Positions 122 through 7,403 of a stretch of DNA of 7,403 bases are shown piece by piece. Numbering within the stretch: position 1 is the stretch's first letter; each line of letters starts with the position of its first letter. The DNA comes from Lachnospiraceae bacterium (GTDB taxonomy: Bacteria > Bacillota_A > Clostridia > Lachnospirales > Lachnospiraceae). Under the pieces are notes generated by a model. That model had not been told where the DNA came from. It saw only the letters and a program-made list of their open reading frames with translations, and searched no databases. A program made the position numbers and the translations under genes. The DNA lies in NCBI GenBank assembly GCA_024683935.1, contig JAIKXV010000020.1, positions 1 to 7,403 on the forward strand. Reading direction: 5' to 3'.

Positions 122-150
122 TTTATATCATATTTACCGCCTTAGTTCAA
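122..150 (-). promoter_or_regulatory. Candidate sigma-A promoter for rqcH
   Basis: On the minus strand TTGAAC (150-145) is followed by a 17-bp spacer and TATAAA (127-122). The -35 matches consensus at four of six positions and the -10 at five of six. The predicted start is near 115, giving a leader of roughly 17 nt that just includes the GGAGGAG ribosome binding site. The -35 overlaps the TGA stop of the regulator gene. If active, it would allow rqcH expression independent of the regulator. The call is based on motif and spacing only. Confidence 0.5.
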
Positions 151-965
151 AGTACCGGATGCCCTTTTACCGGTACAACACATTCGTATAAATACTTTCC
201 GGGGGCGGTTTTATTGACGTTAAGGACAATGAGCCTTACCGGACCTGAAGTCTCCAGATTTCTTTCGGATAATTCGGTGAAAAAATGGGAAAAGAGATCC
301 GATAGAATGGAGTATTCCCCGAACCCGCTGACTGAAAAGGCCTCACTTCCCGGGAAGAAGCGGAGATGGGGATCCTTAAGCTGTGAAGGATCCGGTATTA
401 CCGGGATACAGACCGTTAAATGACAGCCGGAGGGAGAGTGGCTTGCAATAGCCGTCCAGTCATCGGCCAGTACAATGGGAGGCTGCTCGGGTATCACACG
501 GAATCCCGAAGAGATCACCTTTTTATAGTAACCTAAGGAGGTCAATTCCGCTCTTTCAAAGGAGGCTGAGGAAATATCTTCGCAGTAACAGCTTGCTTCA
601 GGGAGAGATAGCAATGAGGAGACAGGTTCCTTTGTATGGGCGCGGCTTAAGTCATATTCATTTATGAAAAGCTGTAATTCCCTCAGGTGTTTGCGCTTTG
701 ACTCCACGTATTCCCGGCTGTCCTCCCGGTCATTGTAGATGTCCGTGATCTCATTCCGGGTAAATCCTAAGGACTGCAAGCGCTTGTATCTGCCGATATC
801 TAAGATATTATTTGAGTCATAATAGCGGTATCCCGTTACGGGGTTCACCCGGCTGGGTTTTAGGAACCCGCATTCTTCAAGGTGTATCAGTGTTGTCCGG
901 CTCACGTTGCAGGCACGGGCAACTTCTGCCACGGTAAATTCGTTTCTATCCTCGGAAGTAAGCAT
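147..965 (-). CDS. MerR-family regulator with BmrR/GyrI-like effector domain
   Basis: A 272-residue transcription regulator. Residues 10-80 form the MerR winged helix-turn-helix: FTVAEVARACNVSRTTLIHL, then LKPSRVNPVTGYRYYD (the wing), then the RLQSLGFTRNEI segment. The usual RYYE after the recognition helix is replaced by LIHLEE, a mild departure. Residues 80-110 are charged and helical, as expected for the antiparallel dimerisation coil. Residues 112-272 resemble the effector pocket of BmrR/GyrI-like proteins, including FPGSEAFSVSGFGEY (204-218), a helix ending near 236, GPVRL (241-245) and the terminal YLYECVVPVK strand. Such domains bind amphipathic or cationic small molecules; the ligand here is unknown. 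Length fits BmrR-type proteins (about 270-280). The gene is divergent from the lipoprotein-channel-hydrolase operon, which makes that operon and its own promoter the likely targets. The start ATG at 965 has only a weak GGAAAG site upstream; no better start lies before the HTH. Confidence 0.88.
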   Translation of the reverse strand: MLTSEDRNEFTVAEVARACNVSRTTLIHLEECGFLKPSRVNPVTGYRYYDSNNILDIGRYKRLQSLGFTRNEITDIYNDREDSREYVESKRKHLRELQLFINEYDLSRAHTKEPVSSLLSLPEASCYCEDISSASFERAELTSLGYYKKVISSGFRVIPEQPPIVLADDWTAIASHSPSGCHLTVCIPVIPDPSQLKDPHLRFFPGSEAFSVSGFGEYSILSDLFSHFFTELSERNLETSGPVRLIVLNVNKTAPGKYLYECVVPVKGHPVL

Positions 966-1086: not shown

Positions 1087-2058
1087 ATGAAAAAGAGGAT
1101 GATATTTCTGATCGTAGCCGCTTTGGGTATCTGCATTCTGGCCGGCTGTAATAAAAAGGCCCAGGTTGAAGAAGCACCTTTTCCTGAGGAGGAGTTTGTA
1201 GAAGAGGATTTTGAAGAAGGGGATTTCGAAGAAGGGGATTTCGAAGAAGATTATATGGAAGAGGAGCCTGCCGAAGATTATAATGAGCAGGAAGCAGCTC
1301 CTGCTGAGGAACCTGCTGAGGAGCCTGCTAAGGAAGAGGCAGCTGACAGCAGCCAGGGCGCACAGGGTTCAGCCGATGCAGTAGGAACATGGCTTACAGA
1401 CGGCTATGATGAGGAAGCTAACTGGGCTATGAGCTATAAGATAGAGCTTACAGCCGACGGAAAGGCAAGCTGCTCAGGCTACAGGAATAAGGACACCGGA
1501 ACCTACGAGTCAACCGGAGATAACAAGGTTCTTATTACCTTTGATCACTGCGAGACTGACGAAGCAGGTGAAGGATATAAGGTTGTTGACGGCTTCAAGT
1601 ATACAGTAGAGATGACCATAAATGGAGACGATGCAGACATCAAGATCAATGCTCCGGATGTCATCAGTAATCTTGAAGATGGAAAAGTACACAGAAATAA
1701 TGGCAGTACCGCTTCCCGTTCGGGAGGCGGCGGTGCCGCAGAGGTTGCTGACGGAGATTATCTGACGGACGAGACATACAAAGGGGAAATATCTGCTGAC
1801 GGCTCAACCATCCGCATCAACACTGCCTTATATCACGAGGATGAAAACTGGAATAAGGTACTTGATTACGATAAGCAGGAATATGAATTCGCTACTTCAA
1901 GTGACTGCAAGTGCGTAGTATTTACAGAGACTAAAGAGGAAAATCCTGTTTCTGAAAGGATTGATTTCATCAACGAGTTCCTTCAGGGAAACAGCGGTCT
2001 GCCCATCAGCTTTAAGATATCAGGCGGCAAGGTGACTGAGATCGGATTCAGTTCATGA
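1087..2058 (+). CDS. Acidic repeat-containing surface lipoprotein, function unknown
   Basis: A 323-residue precursor. It starts MKKRMIFLIVAALGICILAGC: positively charged n-region, hydrophobic stretch and a lipobox LAGC with the lipidated cysteine at 21, so export and anchoring to the outer face of the membrane are expected. Residues 28-86 are a very acidic, low-complexity stalk of E/D/P/A with tandem repeats (GDFEE-type at 40-54; PAEE-type at 72-83). Residues 98-203 form a beta-rich segment (VGTWLTDGYD, IELTADGKASCSGY, VLITFDHCE, YTVEMTINGDDADIKI), then a Ser/Gly-rich linker (206-216), then a second beta-rich segment 218-323 beginning DGDYLTDETYKGEISADGSTIRI. I recognise no named family; the first beta segment loosely resembles lipocalin-like domains. 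A good AGGAGG (1073-1078) precedes the ATG by 8 nt. It is the first gene of the cluster and overlaps the channel gene by 4 nt, so it may be a partner of that channel. Confidence 0.85.
   Translation: MKKRMIFLIVAALGICILAGCNKKAQVEEAPFPEEEFVEEDFEEGDFEEGDFEEDYMEEEPAEDYNEQEAAPAEEPAEEPAKEEAADSSQGAQGSADAVGTWLTDGYDEEANWAMSYKIELTADGKASCSGYRNKDTGTYESTGDNKVLITFDHCETDEAGEGYKVVDGFKYTVEMTINGDDADIKINAPDVISNLEDGKVHRNNGSTASRSGGGGAAEVADGDYLTDETYKGEISADGSTIRINTALYHEDENWNKVLDYDKQEYEFATSSDCKCVVFTETKEENPVSERIDFINEFLQGNSGLPISFKISGGKVTEIGFSS
1204..1248 (+). repeat. Three tandem 15-bp units in the lipoprotein stalk
   Basis: Units start at 1204, 1219 and 1234. The second and third (GGGGATTTCGAAGAA) are identical, and the first differs by a few bases. 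In frame they encode (E/G)DFEE. The identical units suggest recent duplication or slippage, which could change stalk length without breaking the frame. Confidence 0.85.
1300..1335 (+). repeat. Three tandem 12-bp units in the lipoprotein stalk
   Basis: Units start at 1300, 1312 and 1324 and are close variants of CCTGCTGAGGAA, encoding PAEE, PAEE, PAKE. They are in frame and lie in the same acidic stalk as the 15-bp array, so copy-number change would alter spacing between the membrane anchor and the folded domains. Confidence 0.8.
2055..2058 (+). promoter_or_regulatory. ATGA stop/start overlap coupling lipoprotein and channel translation
   Basis: The lipoprotein TGA (2056-2058) overlaps the channel's ATG (2055-2057), and a second in-frame ATG follows at 2058. 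The nearest purine-rich site, AAGGTG (2029-2034), is 20 nt upstream and too distant to act as a normal ribosome binding site. Initiation therefore probably depends on ribosomes terminating on the lipoprotein gene, which would tie the amounts of the two proteins together. Confidence 0.7.
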
Positions 2059-5000
2059 TGGACAACGCCAAAAAACAGGCTCCCGGAAAAGCACGGCTTT
2101 TGCTGATACCGTTTATTACCGTTATCAGCACTGTGCTTTTTATTGTTTTTATGTGGAGTCATCTTATGAACAGCTTCCGGACCACGCAGATACAAAACAA
2201 CGAAAGCTTTTTTTCTCATACCATATCAAATCTCGACAGTAACAACCGCGAGATCGATTCCCTGACAGAAAGATTCAATTCCAACAATAACATAATGCTT
2301 AACGATCTGGTCAGGGTATATTCCTACGACAACTTCCAGAAGCTGGAAGCCATGCCTGTTGATGAGCAGAGTGAGCTGCTCTTAAAAACCACCATCAGCA
2401 TGTCGTACTGCTGCTGGATCCTTGTGATCGACAGGGACGGGGATGTTCTTATGGCTGACGCGTCGGATAACGTGGGATTCAATATGGTTGATGATATCGA
2501 ACTCGATAGAAAGGAGTTTGAAAGGCTCCGGGACGGCGAGATCGAAAAGATGGTCATTGACTCCCCTTATGAGCTTGAGGGAGTACGTGATGATGCAAAG
2601 CTGTATCTATACTGCAAAGCCATACCCGGTACCGGAGAGGGCGAAGAAAAAAAGTATATCTTTATTTCCTTCTTCTCGCAAATGATAGAAGAGACAAAAG
2701 ACAGGATGAACGATCTTTCCGCATGGATGAACGGATCTGCCATCGGCAGTAACGGCTCGGTCTTTTTAGTGGATGCCGACTCGGATGTGATTAAATACGG
2801 CTCCGTTAAAGGGACTGATCTCAAAGGAAAAAGCGCGTCACTTTCAGGTTTTGATTCACTGGTTTTGTCGGATGGATTTAACGGAACAGCTGTTATTAAT
2901 GGAACAAGGTGCTTTGTTTCATCAAAGGCCTATTCCTCTAAGTTATACGGACAGAATGATTATATCGTGGCAGCGATACCCTTCACGGAGATCATAAGGG
3001 TTAACGCCCCGGTCTTCATCTGGAATGTCTGCCTTTTCCTTATCTTTCAGGCACTTATGATGTCTTATATTACCCATGCATCTGCCGAACTGAAAGTGGA
3101 AGGAGAGGATCCGAAGAAGTTAAGGATATTTAAGGGCAGGGATCTGAGTATTTATTTTTCCCGTACTCTTGCGGGAAAGCTCATTCCCGTTGCCGTATTT
3201 GCCGCTGTTCTTCTACTGGGCTGCACCTTTTATTTCCAGCTGCTCATGAAAATGTCCGAGGTATTTTCGGAGTCCATGAGGATAGAGGAAGATATCTCGA
3301 AGAATGTTGAAGAAAGCGCCATACTGCAGGATGGTTTTAAGACTTATGCCAATCTGCAGTATGAAAGCCGGGCTAAACTAATTGCTTTCATGGCGGCGTT
3401 GAACGGCAATGCTTACCTTGATCCGGCAAAGGAAGCGGAAAGCATAAATCTCTTTAACGAAAAAGAAAACGGAAAAAGGGATGTTATTAAGGACGAGTAT
3501 AACAATGCGGTCCAGGTCATCAATAATTCCGCAAGTCTGGATGAGCTTAAGGAGTTAAACCATGTGGAGGAGATCTATCTGATATCCGATTCCGGTAAGA
3601 CCATGGCCACATCTTCTACCTACTGGAATTTTGCCTTAAGCACCGACCCGAAAGACCAGTCCTATGAATTCTGGGATATCATCAACGGCAAGAGCGAAGT
3701 AGTGGTGCAGGATGTGAGGATCAGCGATGAAGGAAATCTTTCCCAGTTTATCGGCTGTGCCCTTAATTACTATACCTGCCTTGACGATGACGGCAATACG
3801 AAATATGTAAGCTATACGGACTATATGGCGCAGGAAAATGGGCGTTACAACGGGAATGAGATCACCAGGCATTTAGGATTACTGCAGGTTGAGATCAACC
3901 CGGAGGCCAAAGACCGGATGATCGACAGCGCCAGACCGGAATATATCCTGTCTAACAGCAGGATCTCAAACGGCGGTTTCCTTATGGGATTTTCCTATGA
4001 CACGGATAAAGAGGATTATAAGGTCCTTTATTCTCCCATTGCGGATATGAAGGATAAATACGCCGGTGATCTGGGAATCCCGCAAAATGCTTTCAGCGGT
4101 AATTACAACGGTTTCAGGACCATTGAAAAAGTGCGTTACCTTCAGAGTTTCAGGGAGGCTGCGGATTATTTCATCGCAACGGCGGTTCCGGTTGCTTCAC
4201 TCTATAAGATATGTTTCAGAACATCGGTATTCTGTGCCGGATTTGCCCTGATCGTAATGCTGATGATTTCATTATTCGCGCTGTTTTCAGCCGAACGCAA
4301 GTCGTCCTCCGGAGCAGAGGATGAGATGGGATTTTTCATGGTGCCGGAAAGAAATGAAAAGACGGGAAAATGGGAGTGGACCGCATTCGAACGGCAATTT
4401 GAAAACATATTAAGGAACGGCCTTATCATTCTGGGGATAATCTTCCTGGCGGCCATTATCGAGGAAGGAAGACGTTTCGGCAGTGATTCCGTATTCTTCT
4501 ATATCCTCAGCGCAGAGTGGGACAGGGGAGTCCACATTTTCTCCATCTCCGCCTGCTTCCTGATAATCATAGTGTCTATGATCCTTATGAAGATGCTGGG
4601 ATATGTGGCCTGCCAGATAGCATCCGCCTTCGGAAACAGTGCGGTTACCATGATCCGGCTTTTCTCATCCCTTGTAAGGGTAATAGCCATAGCGGTGGTA
4701 GCCATGTACTGCCTCTTCCTTCTCGGTATCGATGCCACCAGGCTTCTTGCATCCGCCGGCATCATGTCGGTTGTAGTGGGACTCGGGGCACAGAGCCTTG
4801 TTGGCGACCTGCTGGCAGGGATATTTATCATCATGGAAGGGTCCCTCCATGTGGGGGATTACGTCATGATCGACGGTGTCAGGGGTAAGGTCCTTGAGAT
4901 CGGCCTCCGCACCACAAAGTACGAGGATGACAATCAGAATATCAGGATAATCTGCAATAACGAGATAAAGAAATTTGCCAATATGTCAAAGAAGTATTCC

Positions 5001-5339
5001 GTTGTCTATTACAATATCCCGGTGGCATACAATGAGGATTATCCCCGTATCAGGAAGATACTTAACGAGGAATTCCTGAAGATTTATGAGGATAACAGGA
5101 CATTAAAGAGTATTCCCAGTTGTCAGGGTATTGAAAACTTCGGTGAGAGCTCGGTAGACCTGAGGGTGACCTTTATCTGCGAGGAAAGCAAGAGATTTGC
5201 TGTCCAGCGTTTTATGAGGGATGAGATCATGCGGATATTCATGGAAAATGATATCACCATTCCCTTTAACCAGCTGGATGTCCATTTTGATAGAGAGCTT
5301 GTGCCGGAGGACAGTATAGAGACTCAGGAGAAGGCTTAA
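2055..5339 (+). CDS. MscS-family channel with two Cache-like extracytoplasmic sensor regions
   Basis: A 1094-residue membrane protein, far longer than E. coli MscS (about 286). I read eight membrane helices: 15-34, 319-341, 376-398, 720-744, 785-802, 825-848, 870-891 and the pore helix about 893-930. Two large loops lie outside: 35-318 and 399-718. Both look like double-Cache domains: the first has WILVIDRDGDVLMAD (121-135), GSVFLVDADSDVIKYG (234-249) and YIVAAIPFTEI before its exit helix; the second has EEIYLISDSGKTMATS (505-520) and YFIATAVPVASLY before its exit helix. The C-terminus is MscS: LLASAGIMSVVVGLGAQSL then GDLLAGIF (897-924), VGDYVMIDGVRGKVLEIGLR of the beta domain (933-952), and IICNNEI where IIPNGEI is usual. 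Topology puts both sensors outside and the beta domain in the cytoplasm. MscS channels release solutes on hypoosmotic shock; ligand control by the sensors is inference. Start is translationally coupled; an acidic tail closes the protein. Confidence 0.87.
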   Translation: MMDNAKKQAPGKARLLLIPFITVISTVLFIVFMWSHLMNSFRTTQIQNNESFFSHTISNLDSNNREIDSLTERFNSNNNIMLNDLVRVYSYDNFQKLEAMPVDEQSELLLKTTISMSYCCWILVIDRDGDVLMADASDNVGFNMVDDIELDRKEFERLRDGEIEKMVIDSPYELEGVRDDAKLYLYCKAIPGTGEGEEKKYIFISFFSQMIEETKDRMNDLSAWMNGSAIGSNGSVFLVDADSDVIKYGSVKGTDLKGKSASLSGFDSLVLSDGFNGTAVINGTRCFVSSKAYSSKLYGQNDYIVAAIPFTEIIRVNAPVFIWNVCLFLIFQALMMSYITHASAELKVEGEDPKKLRIFKGRDLSIYFSRTLAGKLIPVAVFAAVLLLGCTFYFQLLMKMSEVFSESMRIEEDISKNVEESAILQDGFKTYANLQYESRAKLIAFMAALNGNAYLDPAKEAESINLFNEKENGKRDVIKDEYNNAVQVINNSASLDELKELNHVEEIYLISDSGKTMATSSTYWNFALSTDPKDQSYEFWDIINGKSEVVVQDVRISDEGNLSQFIGCALNYYTCLDDDGNTKYVSYTDYMAQENGRYNGNEITRHLGLLQVEINPEAKDRMIDSARPEYILSNSRISNGGFLMGFSYDTDKEDYKVLYSPIADMKDKYAGDLGIPQNAFSGNYNGFRTIEKVRYLQSFREAADYFIATAVPVASLYKICFRTSVFCAGFALIVMLMISLFALFSAERKSSSGAEDEMGFFMVPERNEKTGKWEWTAFERQFENILRNGLIILGIIFLAAIIEEGRRFGSDSVFFYILSAEWDRGVHIFSISACFLIIIVSMILMKMLGYVACQIASAFGNSAVTMIRLFSSLVRVIAIAVVAMYCLFLLGIDATRLLASAGIMSVVVGLGAQSLVGDLLAGIFIIMEGSLHVGDYVMIDGVRGKVLEIGLRTTKYEDDNQNIRIICNNEIKKFANMSKKYSVVYYNIPVAYNEDYPRIRKILNEEFLKIYEDNRTLKSIPSCQGIENFGESSVDLRVTFICEESKRFAVQRFMRDEIMRIFMENDITIPFNQLDVHFDRELVPEDSIETQEKA

Positions 5340-5358
5340 AACGGAGGTAGTGATCCCA

Positions 5359-7403
5359 ATGAGACTTAAGAGAGTATTGATCGCAGCTATAGGTTTTTCA
5401 TTTGCACTTTCCCTTAATGCGCAGGCGGCAGTTACAACCATGCCTTCGGTATCAAAGGAGATGCTGGATCCGGAGTACTGGCTTGAAGATGTTTCGGAGC
5501 CGGATAAGGTCCTTGTTACCCGGGAGGATATAAGGACCTTAAACAGATCCTTTATCACCTGCAAGGACTGCAATATGTACGATCTCTTTTATGAGACCGG
5601 CAGCTTTAACGGCAAAGAAGATAACTTAAAGAGATGGAAGTCCGCCATGACGGATCTGGCCATCTATCTTGACGGCGCCCACTATGACGCGGCGGAAAAG
5701 ACCGTTTCCGGACAGTATGTGATGGAGATCCTTAAAAACGTAGAGGACCCCGGTGCCAAGGAAAAGCAGGAGATAAGGTACGGTATCGCTGTCCGGCAGT
5801 CTGATGTAAGGGCTTTCCCCACGGATCTCATAATAGCCGACGATCCCGGGGACAATGATTTCGACAATGTACAGGTTTCAGGCATAAGGCTTGGAGAGCC
5901 TGTCACCATCCGCGCGGTGTCTGAGGACGGGAGATACTATCTCTGCCACACTTCCTGCGTGTCCGGCTGGATCCCCTCGGAGGATATAGCTATCTGCAAA
6001 GACAGGGCAGAGTGGCTCAAAGCCTGGGACTTCCCTGCGGATAAGGTCATGGTGGTCACTGCGTCCAAGATCACCCTTGAAGAATCAAATACCAGTCCCG
6101 AGCTCTCGGGCCTCATGCTCACCATGGGCACTGTCTTAAAGAAGGCAGATCCTTCGGAATACGGGGACCTTGTAACCAACCGTTCCCTTTATTACAACTA
6201 TCCCGTCTGGATTCCTGTGAGGAATGATAAGGGTGGCTACGAAAAGAGGCTTGCCCTCATTTCCATGCATCACGAGGTAAGCGACGGATTCCTTCCCCTT
6301 ACCCACAGGAATATATTAAAGCAGGCATATAACAAGCTTGGAGACGCCTACGGCTGGGGCGGCATGCTTTCCGCACCCGACTGTTCATCCTATGTCAGGG
6401 ATATTTATAAGTGTTTCGGCATAGACCTGCCGAGGAACACCACCTGGCAGTCCGCTATGCCTGTTGAGAAATATGATATTTCCGCCGCTACGGACGAAGA
6501 GAAAACTGAATTCTTTAAGGAGCTGGATCCCGGAACCATCCTTTTCCTTAAGGGCCATGAGATGCTCTATCTCGGAAGCAAAGACGGAAAGTGCTATGTC
6601 ATCAGCTCCTCCAGCTCCATGATGGATCCTGCGGGTGAAGATAAAAAGAGGATAAGGAGCGTCATCATCAATTCCCTTGATGTTAAGCGGGCTAACGGCA
6701 AAACCTGGATCTCCGAGCTCTACGAGGCGGCGGTTCCCTATGCGGCCAATAAGGAGAACATAAGCCTGCCCATTTTTGACTCCTCAAAGAATGTAATTAA
6801 GAGAAAGCCTGCGGTTTCCGGCAATACCGTGTCCGGCAACGACGCATACGAGGAAATTTCCTTCGATAAGTCCTGGGAATACGGGGACAAGGCTAAGATC
6901 ACGGAGGGTAAGGCAAGACTTTACCGTTCCGACGCTGCGGACCGCAAAAATGTCACCGTCTGCATCAATGCAGGCCATGGCACCAAGGACGGTACAAGGG
7001 TGAAGACACAATGCCATCCCGACGGCAGCCCGAAGATCGTAACCGGCAGCACTGCCGCAGGAGCTACGGAAGCTGCGGCCATCGCAGACGGAACGGTAAT
7101 GAAGAACGGTGATACAGAGGCTGTAGCCACCCTTAAGGCCGCCATGAAGGTCAAGGATGAGCTGTTAAAGAAGGGTTATGATGTCCTTATGATCCGTGAA
7201 ACCGATGATGTCCAGCTTGACAACATTGCCCGTACCCTGATCGCCGACAACTATGCCGACGCCCATATCGCACTGCATTACGACTCCACAGATAAGGATA
7301 AGGGCGTATTCTACTGTAGTGTCCCTGATGAAGGCGGATACAGGGATATGGAGCCTGTAAAGACTCACTGGAGATCCCACGAAAAGCTGGGGAAGAGCCT
7401 GAT
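5359..7403 (+). CDS. Secreted NlpC/P60 peptidase - amidase_3 fusion, 3' end missing
   Basis: The frame is open from the ATG at 5359 to the window end (681 complete codons). GGAGG at 5343-5347 supports the start, 19 bp after the channel's stop. A signal peptide (1-23, cleavage after AQA) predicts secretion. Residues 27-140 fit the N-terminal segment of YkfC-like NlpC/P60 proteins; 142-212 is an SH3b1-like domain (VRQSDVRAFPTD, then GWIPSEDIA); 229-310 is a second SH3-like domain containing YPVWIPV. The NlpC/P60 core (315-420) has the nucleophile in APDCSSYVRDIY (Cys342) and His400 in GHEMLYLG; the third polar position appears to be Ser416 in YVISS rather than His. A linker with VSGNTVSGN (486-494) leads to an amidase_3 domain: INAGHG (His540), Glu587 in DTEAVATL, GYDVLMIRETDD and HIALHYDS (His640) fit the zinc ligands. 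The family cleaves the D-Glu-diamino acid bond and the MurNAc-L-Ala amide respectively. The catalytic Glu expected near the end is outside the window. Confidence 0.88.
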   Translation, partial: MRLKRVLIAAIGFSFALSLNAQAAVTTMPSVSKEMLDPEYWLEDVSEPDKVLVTREDIRTLNRSFITCKDCNMYDLFYETGSFNGKEDNLKRWKSAMTDLAIYLDGAHYDAAEKTVSGQYVMEILKNVEDPGAKEKQEIRYGIAVRQSDVRAFPTDLIIADDPGDNDFDNVQVSGIRLGEPVTIRAVSEDGRYYLCHTSCVSGWIPSEDIAICKDRAEWLKAWDFPADKVMVVTASKITLEESNTSPELSGLMLTMGTVLKKADPSEYGDLVTNRSLYYNYPVWIPVRNDKGGYEKRLALISMHHEVSDGFLPLTHRNILKQAYNKLGDAYGWGGMLSAPDCSSYVRDIYKCFGIDLPRNTTWQSAMPVEKYDISAATDEEKTEFFKELDPGTILFLKGHEMLYLGSKDGKCYVISSSSSMMDPAGEDKKRIRSVIINSLDVKRANGKTWISELYEAAVPYAANKENISLPIFDSSKNVIKRKPAVSGNTVSGNDAYEEISFDKSWEYGDKAKITEGKARLYRSDAADRKNVTVCINAGHGTKDGTRVKTQCHPDGSPKIVTGSTAAGATEAAAIADGTVMKNGDTEAVATLKAAMKVKDELLKKGYDVLMIRETDDVQLDNIARTLIADNYADAHIALHYDSTDKDKGVFYCSVPDEGGYRDMEPVKTHWRSHEKLGKSL
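6814..6840 (+). repeat. VSGN linker repeat in the wall hydrolase
   Basis: Two near-identical units, GTTTCCGGCAATACC and GTGTCCGGCAAC, encode VSGNT-VSGN between the NlpC/P60 and amidase domains (residues 486-494). Short Val-Ser-Gly-Asn repeats are common flexible linkers in secreted proteins of Lachnospiraceae as far as I recall. It marks the domain boundary of the fusion. Confidence 0.7.

Follow-up and report, generated by a model that had tools for sequence, protein, structure and literature searches.

What does a channel of the mechanosensitive MscS type do with two large domains held outside the cell? The question is raised by a 7,403-nucleotide stretch of DNA from a Lachnospiraceae bacterium of rumen type (contig JAIKXV010000020.1 of assembly GCA_024683935.1; hereafter the window), which encodes a protein that a sequence-only reading had described as a mechanosensitive-type channel carrying two tandem extracellular Cache-like sensor regions. 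MscS channels are textbook tension valves; on balance, we favour the view that the pore of this one is controlled by an external ligand, likely delivered by a binding protein in those clades whose channel gene adjoins a gene for a solute-binding protein (SBP). This view builds on an observed or computed MscS core, its topology, the Cache fold of the exported domains (by model), the mutual homology of these domains, a conserved layout and a linkage to SBP genes in two clades.

An MscS core preceded by two predicted double-Cache ectodomains

The MscS core of the channel protein is complete (residues 873-1069): PF21088 (3.4e-6), PF00924 (4.1e-14) and PF21082 (3.5e-6) each score above their Pfam cut-offs, and a PDB profile search matched the MscS structure 3udc at 3.6e-61 (we take 3udc and 3t9n to be Thermoanaerobacter MscS). 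Beyond this core the protein has no other Pfam match at E ≤ 1, and its NCBIfam matches are MscS-type models, all below their cut-offs. A hydropathy scan marks eight hydrophobic segments (residues 15-33, 318-336, 376-394, 725-743, 785-803, 826-844, 874-892 and 908-926), which outline, ahead of the core and as had been proposed, two modules of helix, exported stretch (284 and 330 residues) and helix; the exit motifs in which the sequence-only reading had seen a single pattern are both real (YIVAAIPFTEI, residues 303-313; YFIATAVPVASLY, residues 705-717). With the MscS beta domain taken as cytoplasmic, both ectodomains lie outside and the K/R-rich linkers (337-375 and 744-784) inside; the helix map thus puts the putative sensors where that reading had put them, and not in the cytoplasm.

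AlphaFold2 models of ectodomains 1 and 2 (pLDDT 87.9 and 83.7) both match Cache and double-Cache (dCache) structures (Foldseek/VIA), in keeping with the fold expected beforehand, and no unrelated fold emerged. Models and topology together have the features of a dCache domain: two PAS-like lobes, a long N-terminal helix and an extracellular position between two transmembrane (TM) helices. By these models, then, both ectodomains are Cache-type double domains. Searched by sequence alone against the PDB, neither ectodomain gave anything credible, and profiles that included the core matched MscS only. The dCache_1 family was matched by 16 of 40 relatives at E ≤ 1 (best 3.1e-11), and a search with ectodomain 2 of a Gordonibacter relative returned 475 proteins at E ≤ 0.001; a precomputed domain table assigns PF02743 together with PF00924 to 113 of the 120 that were listed, only PF02743 to six and only PF00924 to one, so the architecture whose survey had been called for is visible in domain tables. 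The named entries among these homologues are called just mechanosensitive channel.

The two ectodomains also resemble each other. A profile-profile comparison of their families aligned 257 columns (probability 99.9, E 6.9e-31), a direct BLASTP match between the two (E 0.001 in a single comparison) is located in the membrane-proximal part, and a membrane-proximal block is common to both families. Against the profile of the other ectodomain, family ectodomains score 68-171 (8 of 48 tried each way), whereas neither profile gives more than 42 to any of 19 other dCache open reading frames (ORFs) in the genomes that hold the family, a comparison that may somewhat favour the family, whose members were cut domains where the controls were whole ORFs. 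The controls came from 30 fetched loci, 10 of which gave a wrong short ORF and one of which (L086) belongs to the channel family, leaving 19 ORFs of at least 500 residues, 14 of them with exactly open-frame length. Ectodomains 1 and 2 are, by sequence, the nearest relatives of each other among those tested, and look like an internal duplication; this was one of the two origins proposed, and it is the one that the profile match and the dCache control support. The other, serial acquisition of two unrelated Caches, is disfavoured by the cross-scores.

Among four lobes compared, with limits that we drew from the models, the distal lobe of ectodomain 2 is the best conserved (mean top-residue frequency 0.59). 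Over 48 aligned rows, its candidate ligand loop is near-invariant (Q535 0.92, S536 1.00, Y537 0.88, F539 1.00), and in an alignment with L091, an ordinary dCache, it falls on the R-x-Y loop. In PctA, according to the accessible text of one report, R126 of the R-x-W-Y loop binds the amino-acid carboxylate (PMC10104139). The arginine of dCache_1AA is absent from the stretch of ectodomain 2 that corresponds in this distant alignment, D-Q-S-Y-E-F; with that residue missing and neither of the two SBP classes described below adjoining, the ligands suggested earlier (amino acids, organic acids, wall fragments) are unsupported for the window protein.

Table 1. Features of the window; positions count from its first nucleotide, residues (res) from the start of the channel protein.
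Feature	Positions	Strand	Basis
Acidic lipoprotein-like gene, 323 aa, possible partner	1087..2058	+	TGA overlaps channel ATG (ATGA at 2055-2058)
dCache-dCache-MscS channel gene, 1094 aa	2055..5339	+	ORF with ATG start
TM1, res 15-33	2097..2153	+	hydropathy; helix 11-88 in model
Ectodomain 1, double-Cache-like fold, res 34-317	2154..3005	+	predicted model
Exit motif 1, YIVAAIPFTEI, res 303-313	2961..2993	+	sequence
TM2, res 318-336	3006..3062	+	hydropathy
TM3, res 376-394	3180..3236	+	hydropathy
Ectodomain 2, double-Cache-like fold, res 395-724	3237..4226	+	predicted model
Near-invariant loop Q535-S536-Y537-E538-F539, ectodomain 2 distal lobe, candidate ligand loop	3657..3671	+	48-row conservation; alignment to L091
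Exit motif 2, YFIATAVPVASLY, res 705-717	4167..4205	+	sequence
TM4, res 725-743	4227..4283	+	hydropathy
TM5, res 785-803, extra helix ahead of MscS core	4407..4463	+	hydropathy
TM6, res 826-844, likely equivalent of MscS TM1	4530..4586	+	hydropathy
MscS TM2/TM3 pore region, res 873-913	4671..4793	+	PF21088
MscS beta domain, res 915-978	4797..4988	+	PF00924, 4.1e-14
MscS C-terminal domain, res 986-1069	5010..5261	+	PF21082
Exported wall hydrolase, SH3_6, NlpC/P60, Amidase_3	5359..7403	+	Pfam; ~20 nt after channel; runs off window

Relatives of the channel and their solute-binding-protein genes

A scan of genome contigs found 257 relatives, of which the best 80 were kept as loci for neighbourhood counts; these 80 come from Lachnospiraceae, Erysipelotrichaceae, Mogibacterium, Oscillospiraceae, other Clostridia and Coriobacteriia (for example Gordonibacter and Enteroscipio), and the nearest relative (L001, 99% identical) belongs to a Lachnospiraceae metagenome-assembled genome from goat reticulum. 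Two protein searches, each of which scored only ~8,000 candidates, gave 15 proteins with the exported half and 22 with a profile, 20 of the latter being full-length family members. The layout is conserved: both ectodomains (242-291 and 255-336 residues) are present in all 47 aligned relatives, which were drawn from the 80 loci for complete ORFs, and a crude hydropathy scan finds two gaps of 200-420 residues in 66 of the 74 relatives whose ORFs have both ends. In the other eight, either an additional predicted hydrophobic segment interrupts ectodomain 1 (six) or the ORF starts inside it (L067 and L068); frameshifts or assembly errors may explain why the channel ORFs L067, L068 and L041 start within ectodomain 1 or stop early.

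The spread is patchy, with matches at E ≤ 1e-20 in 3 of 200 genomes from the family of the L001 genome and in 33 of 197 from the order of the L070 genome, the L001 and L070 genomes being counted. Twelve genomes picked because they hold the sensor channel have 29 MscS-domain genes, 13 of the long sensor type and 16 short ordinary ones, with at least one of each kind in every genome; an ordinary MscS frame is thus at hand in 12 of 12, and the sensor channel seems to come in addition to it. One genome (G008) holds two long-type channels, L119 and L127.

Clustering of the ORFs that flank the 80 loci brought out two clusters that directly adjoin the channel, and both are SBPs. By tblastn, an SBP gene adjoins the channel in 37 of the 80: 18 are SBP_bac_3 genes upstream (PF00497, the amino-acid type; Pfam on L059 and L050, others by homology) and 19 are NMT1/THI5-like genes downstream (PF09084 and PF13379; Pfam on L030 and L064, others by homology), those of the GC-rich L073, L075 and L078 and of L039 being found only by this search. 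The channel ORF of L041 is truncated, and its SBP is found ~650 nt further on. The SBP_bac_3 gene overlaps the channel by 4-9 nt in 9 of 15 ORFs as called, and N termini are lipobox-like in 12 of 18 NMT1/THI5-like and 11 of 15 SBP_bac_3 predicted ORFs. All 13 aligned SBP_bac_3 partners keep R149 and D247, which we take to be the amino-acid carboxylate and amine contacts of that family; in NCBIfam, below cut-offs, two SBPs are nearest to sulfonate-type and three to Asp/Glu or Lys/Arg/Orn-type binding proteins.

In a tree of 71 channels (70 of the 80 loci and the window), each SBP class is confined to one clade, with one change each among the labelled rows; L049 and L066 have no SBP, yet are placed on the SBP_bac_3 side. 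A wider draw from the order of genome G005 found an SBP_bac_3 gene ~12-25 nt upstream in all 30 loci fetched, of which 25 were new and five were re-fetched from the first 80 (three matched genomes gave no locus). At the 16 ordinary MscS loci of the 12 genomes, neither of the two SBP classes, the only ones sought, was found by profile or by tblastn (0 of 16) within ~1 kb beyond the gene (less for L111, L138 and L139). The coupling of SBP genes to the channel in relatives gives independent support to the external-ligand control that we infer.

The same genes would be uninformative on the channel if they were leftovers of ATP-binding cassette (ABC) uptake operons, which strikes us as most improbable. 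PF00497 and PF09084 proteins do usually serve ABC importers, and a motif scan places ABC-ATPase-like frames within 3.5 kb in four of the 37 SBP loci (L064, L075, L076 and L078), ~70-120 nt behind the channel in L075 and L078 and, in L064, as two frames >2.3 kb upstream; the other 33 hold none, although in 12 of the 37 the sequence reaches less than 3.5 kb on one side. L075, L076 and L078, moreover, include frames of ~600 residues whose length and sequence point to the fused exporter type, and such exporters use no SBP. The two SBP classes are unrelated and lie on opposite sides of the channel, and the SBP was kept throughout the wider draw despite ectodomains 54-100% identical to those of L070. 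The fused exporter-like frames, all in Eggerthellaceae, lie 70-300 nt behind the channel on the plus strand (L075, 10563-12393; L078, 10542-12357; L076, 10856-12692).

Two other roles for the pore were weighed against the flanking genes. The protein could be a regulated exporter, whose MscS pore releases a metabolite or osmolyte while Cache or SBP senses its external level and switches export; MscCG of Corynebacterium is an MscS-type glutamate exporter, and the presence of the pore, the amino-acid type of SBP partners and the ordinary MscS-domain gene held besides in 12 of 12 genomes would all suit this role. SBPs apart, however, the first 25 clusters include no widely conserved gene cluster directly beside the channel, and we think an exporter unlikely. 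It is very unlikely that the protein is a receptor using the MscS fold as a scaffold and signalling through partner proteins, not ion flow: the pore-helix motif LLASAG...GLGAQSL is strongly conserved in the family, no widely conserved cytoplasmic partner gene appears among the flanking clusters, and the ~190 extra residues after the MscS domain in L029, L043 and L047, which such a receptor might use, have no Pfam match at E ≤ 0.01 in two of the three (L043 and L029). These extended channels are L043 and L047 (7932-11861) and L029 (2687-6586); by eye, the extension holds an LRLLAEELFG-like stretch that recalls GHKL/anti-sigma ATPases.

The window's own neighbourhood and the case against ligand control

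The lipoprotein-like protein encoded ahead of the window channel has no Pfam match; L001 has the same ATGA overlap with a lipoprotein-like gene of 329 residues, and L003 a 53% identical homologue 160 nt upstream of its channel. The wall hydrolase on the other side, its ORF listed from a GTG at 5350 with the ATG at 5359 judged the more likely start, also begins in L001 and in no other of the 80 loci. A channel set between these two genes, in the window and in L001, would fit an ordinary tension valve whose threshold the ectodomains tune via the cell wall or a wall-bound lipoprotein, with no soluble ligand. We hold this to be quite unlikely, as the hydrolase linkage is limited to these two near-identical loci, binding-protein neighbours occur in those 37 relatives, Cache is a ligand-sensor fold and conservation is highest in the distal lobe of ectodomain 2.

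No conserved neighbourhood was found in the window's clade, where the scanned neighbours differ (epimerase, PLD-domain protein, AMP-binding enzyme, HD protein, SBP_bac_11 with VWA). The last of these is a gene of L006 (3385-5073, plus strand), 26 nt upstream of the channel. A conserved 400-residue protein, malic-enzyme-like by eye, overlaps or follows the channel gene in L005, L011, L013 and L015 and is divergent upstream in L007. In the window, a divergent MerR-family regulator (147-965, minus strand) stands beside the lipoprotein and channel genes, and its strand has a promoter-like site (11/12) at 1039-1011; promoter and terminator scans of the window overall gave counts at shuffle level.

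Several observations weigh against control of the pore by an external ligand. Whole-domain superpositions of the ectodomain models are loose (rmsd ~6-11 Å, Foldseek TM mostly 0.2-0.46), single lobes superposing better (~2.5-4 Å), and single-Cache and cytoplasmic PAS proteins are also among the structural matches. The profile searches suggested at the outset bore out PF00924 in the window protein and PF02743 in relatives; the window protein itself has no Pfam Cache match at E ≤ 1, let alone at the curated cut-off, and of nine relatives scanned singly, five match dCache_1, none of them reaching the Pfam cut-off (43.7 bits at best, against 45). The distal lobe of ectodomain 1 is poorly conserved (mean top-residue frequency 0.38). 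Neither SBP class was found in 43 of the 80 loci (some on short contigs), among them L001-L017, which with the window form its clade and where, as in the window, tblastn found no SBP-coupled unit of either class; the lipoprotein, for its part, was found in only 2 of 80 loci. Gene adjacency, finally, is not proof of interaction.

Proposed mechanism and relation to known systems

From these data we infer four further steps: a heptamer, ligand binding, docking and gating. Each subunit would carry two tandem homologous double-Cache sensors outside the cell, joined by TM helices to the MscS pore, and seven would presumably assemble as in MscS, a homo-heptamer according to the available text of PMC4560390. 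An external small molecule may bind the conserved distal pocket of ectodomain 2 directly, or a lipid-anchored SBP may deliver it by docking on the Cache domains; the ligand would then shift the pose of exit helices TM2 and TM4, and the MscS gate would open, close or be retuned. In the window protein only a short linker on the cytoplasmic side separates the last exit helix from the helix ahead of the MscS core, and movement of that exit helix can thus reach the pore. The piston view of Cache receptors, set out in the accessible part of PMC8846402, has ligand-induced motion relayed via the exit helix.

A more specific form of ligand control can be proposed, if only tentatively, as we doubt it more than we trust it: an MscS-based family of ligand-gated channels in which a lipid-anchored SBP (of the amino-acid type in one branch, NMT1/THI5 in another) docks on the tandem dCaches and gates the pore, a pseudo-dimer in each subunit reconciling twofold Cache with sevenfold channel. 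Cache sensors usually pair, and two homologous dCaches per chain would allow internal pairing within each subunit, which is an idea and not a result. If true, the family would be an independently reached MscS counterpart of ionotropic glutamate receptors and Cache-fused Cys-loop channels. More generally, a gut-bacterial MscS branch with outward sensors, often beside an SBP gene, would bring the pore under the additional influence of external ligands; MscS would become a second pore family with Cache domains fused to the channel as their output, and binding-protein sensing and single-pore gating would be directly measurable in a two-gene system.

With the MscS superfamily (MS_channel_1st/2nd/3rd; E. 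coli MscS; 3udc/3t9n) the window channel shares pore helices, beta domain and C-terminal domain, and ahead of these it carries two exported dCache domains along with five additional helices; MscK and MscM match it only over the core (PDB search). The ligand domain of bCNG channels, cyclic-nucleotide-gated relatives of MscS, lies inside the cell. These channels likewise join an MscS pore to an added ligand domain, but the ligand is a cyclic nucleotide and, in the text available, no Cache is involved (PMC4560390). By its models, the window protein has the ectodomain fold of dCache chemoreceptors and histidine kinases (PctA, Mlp24, PscC and others), and the same placement between two TM helices, but its output is a channel, it has two dCaches per chain, and D-Q-S-Y-x-F in ectodomain 2 replaces the R-x-W-Y type of loop.

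As far as its accessible text goes, the paper of Upadhyay (2016) holds that Cache domains had been identified only in proteins that carry an output signalling domain, and the ion-channel class in its table of Cache outputs is VWA_N/VGCC_alpha2 (PMC4822843). In the literature searched, which has subscription papers largely outside it and includes the available parts of PMC7848895 and PMC8846402, we found no publication on a dCache-MscS architecture. The alpha2delta subunits of animal calcium channels likewise place two dCache_1 domains in the service of a channel, but as a separate auxiliary subunit of a voltage-gated one, to judge from the accessible part of PMC9901441. The nearest precedent is set by the bacterial Cys-loop channels, some of which, in the portion available of Tasneem (2005), have Cache/MCP-N fusions or PBP-II operons (PMC549065): the logic of channel, Cache fusion and binding-protein operon is the same, whereas their pore is unrelated and has a ligand domain of its own, in place of which the window protein combines MscS with two dCaches and no Cys-loop domain.

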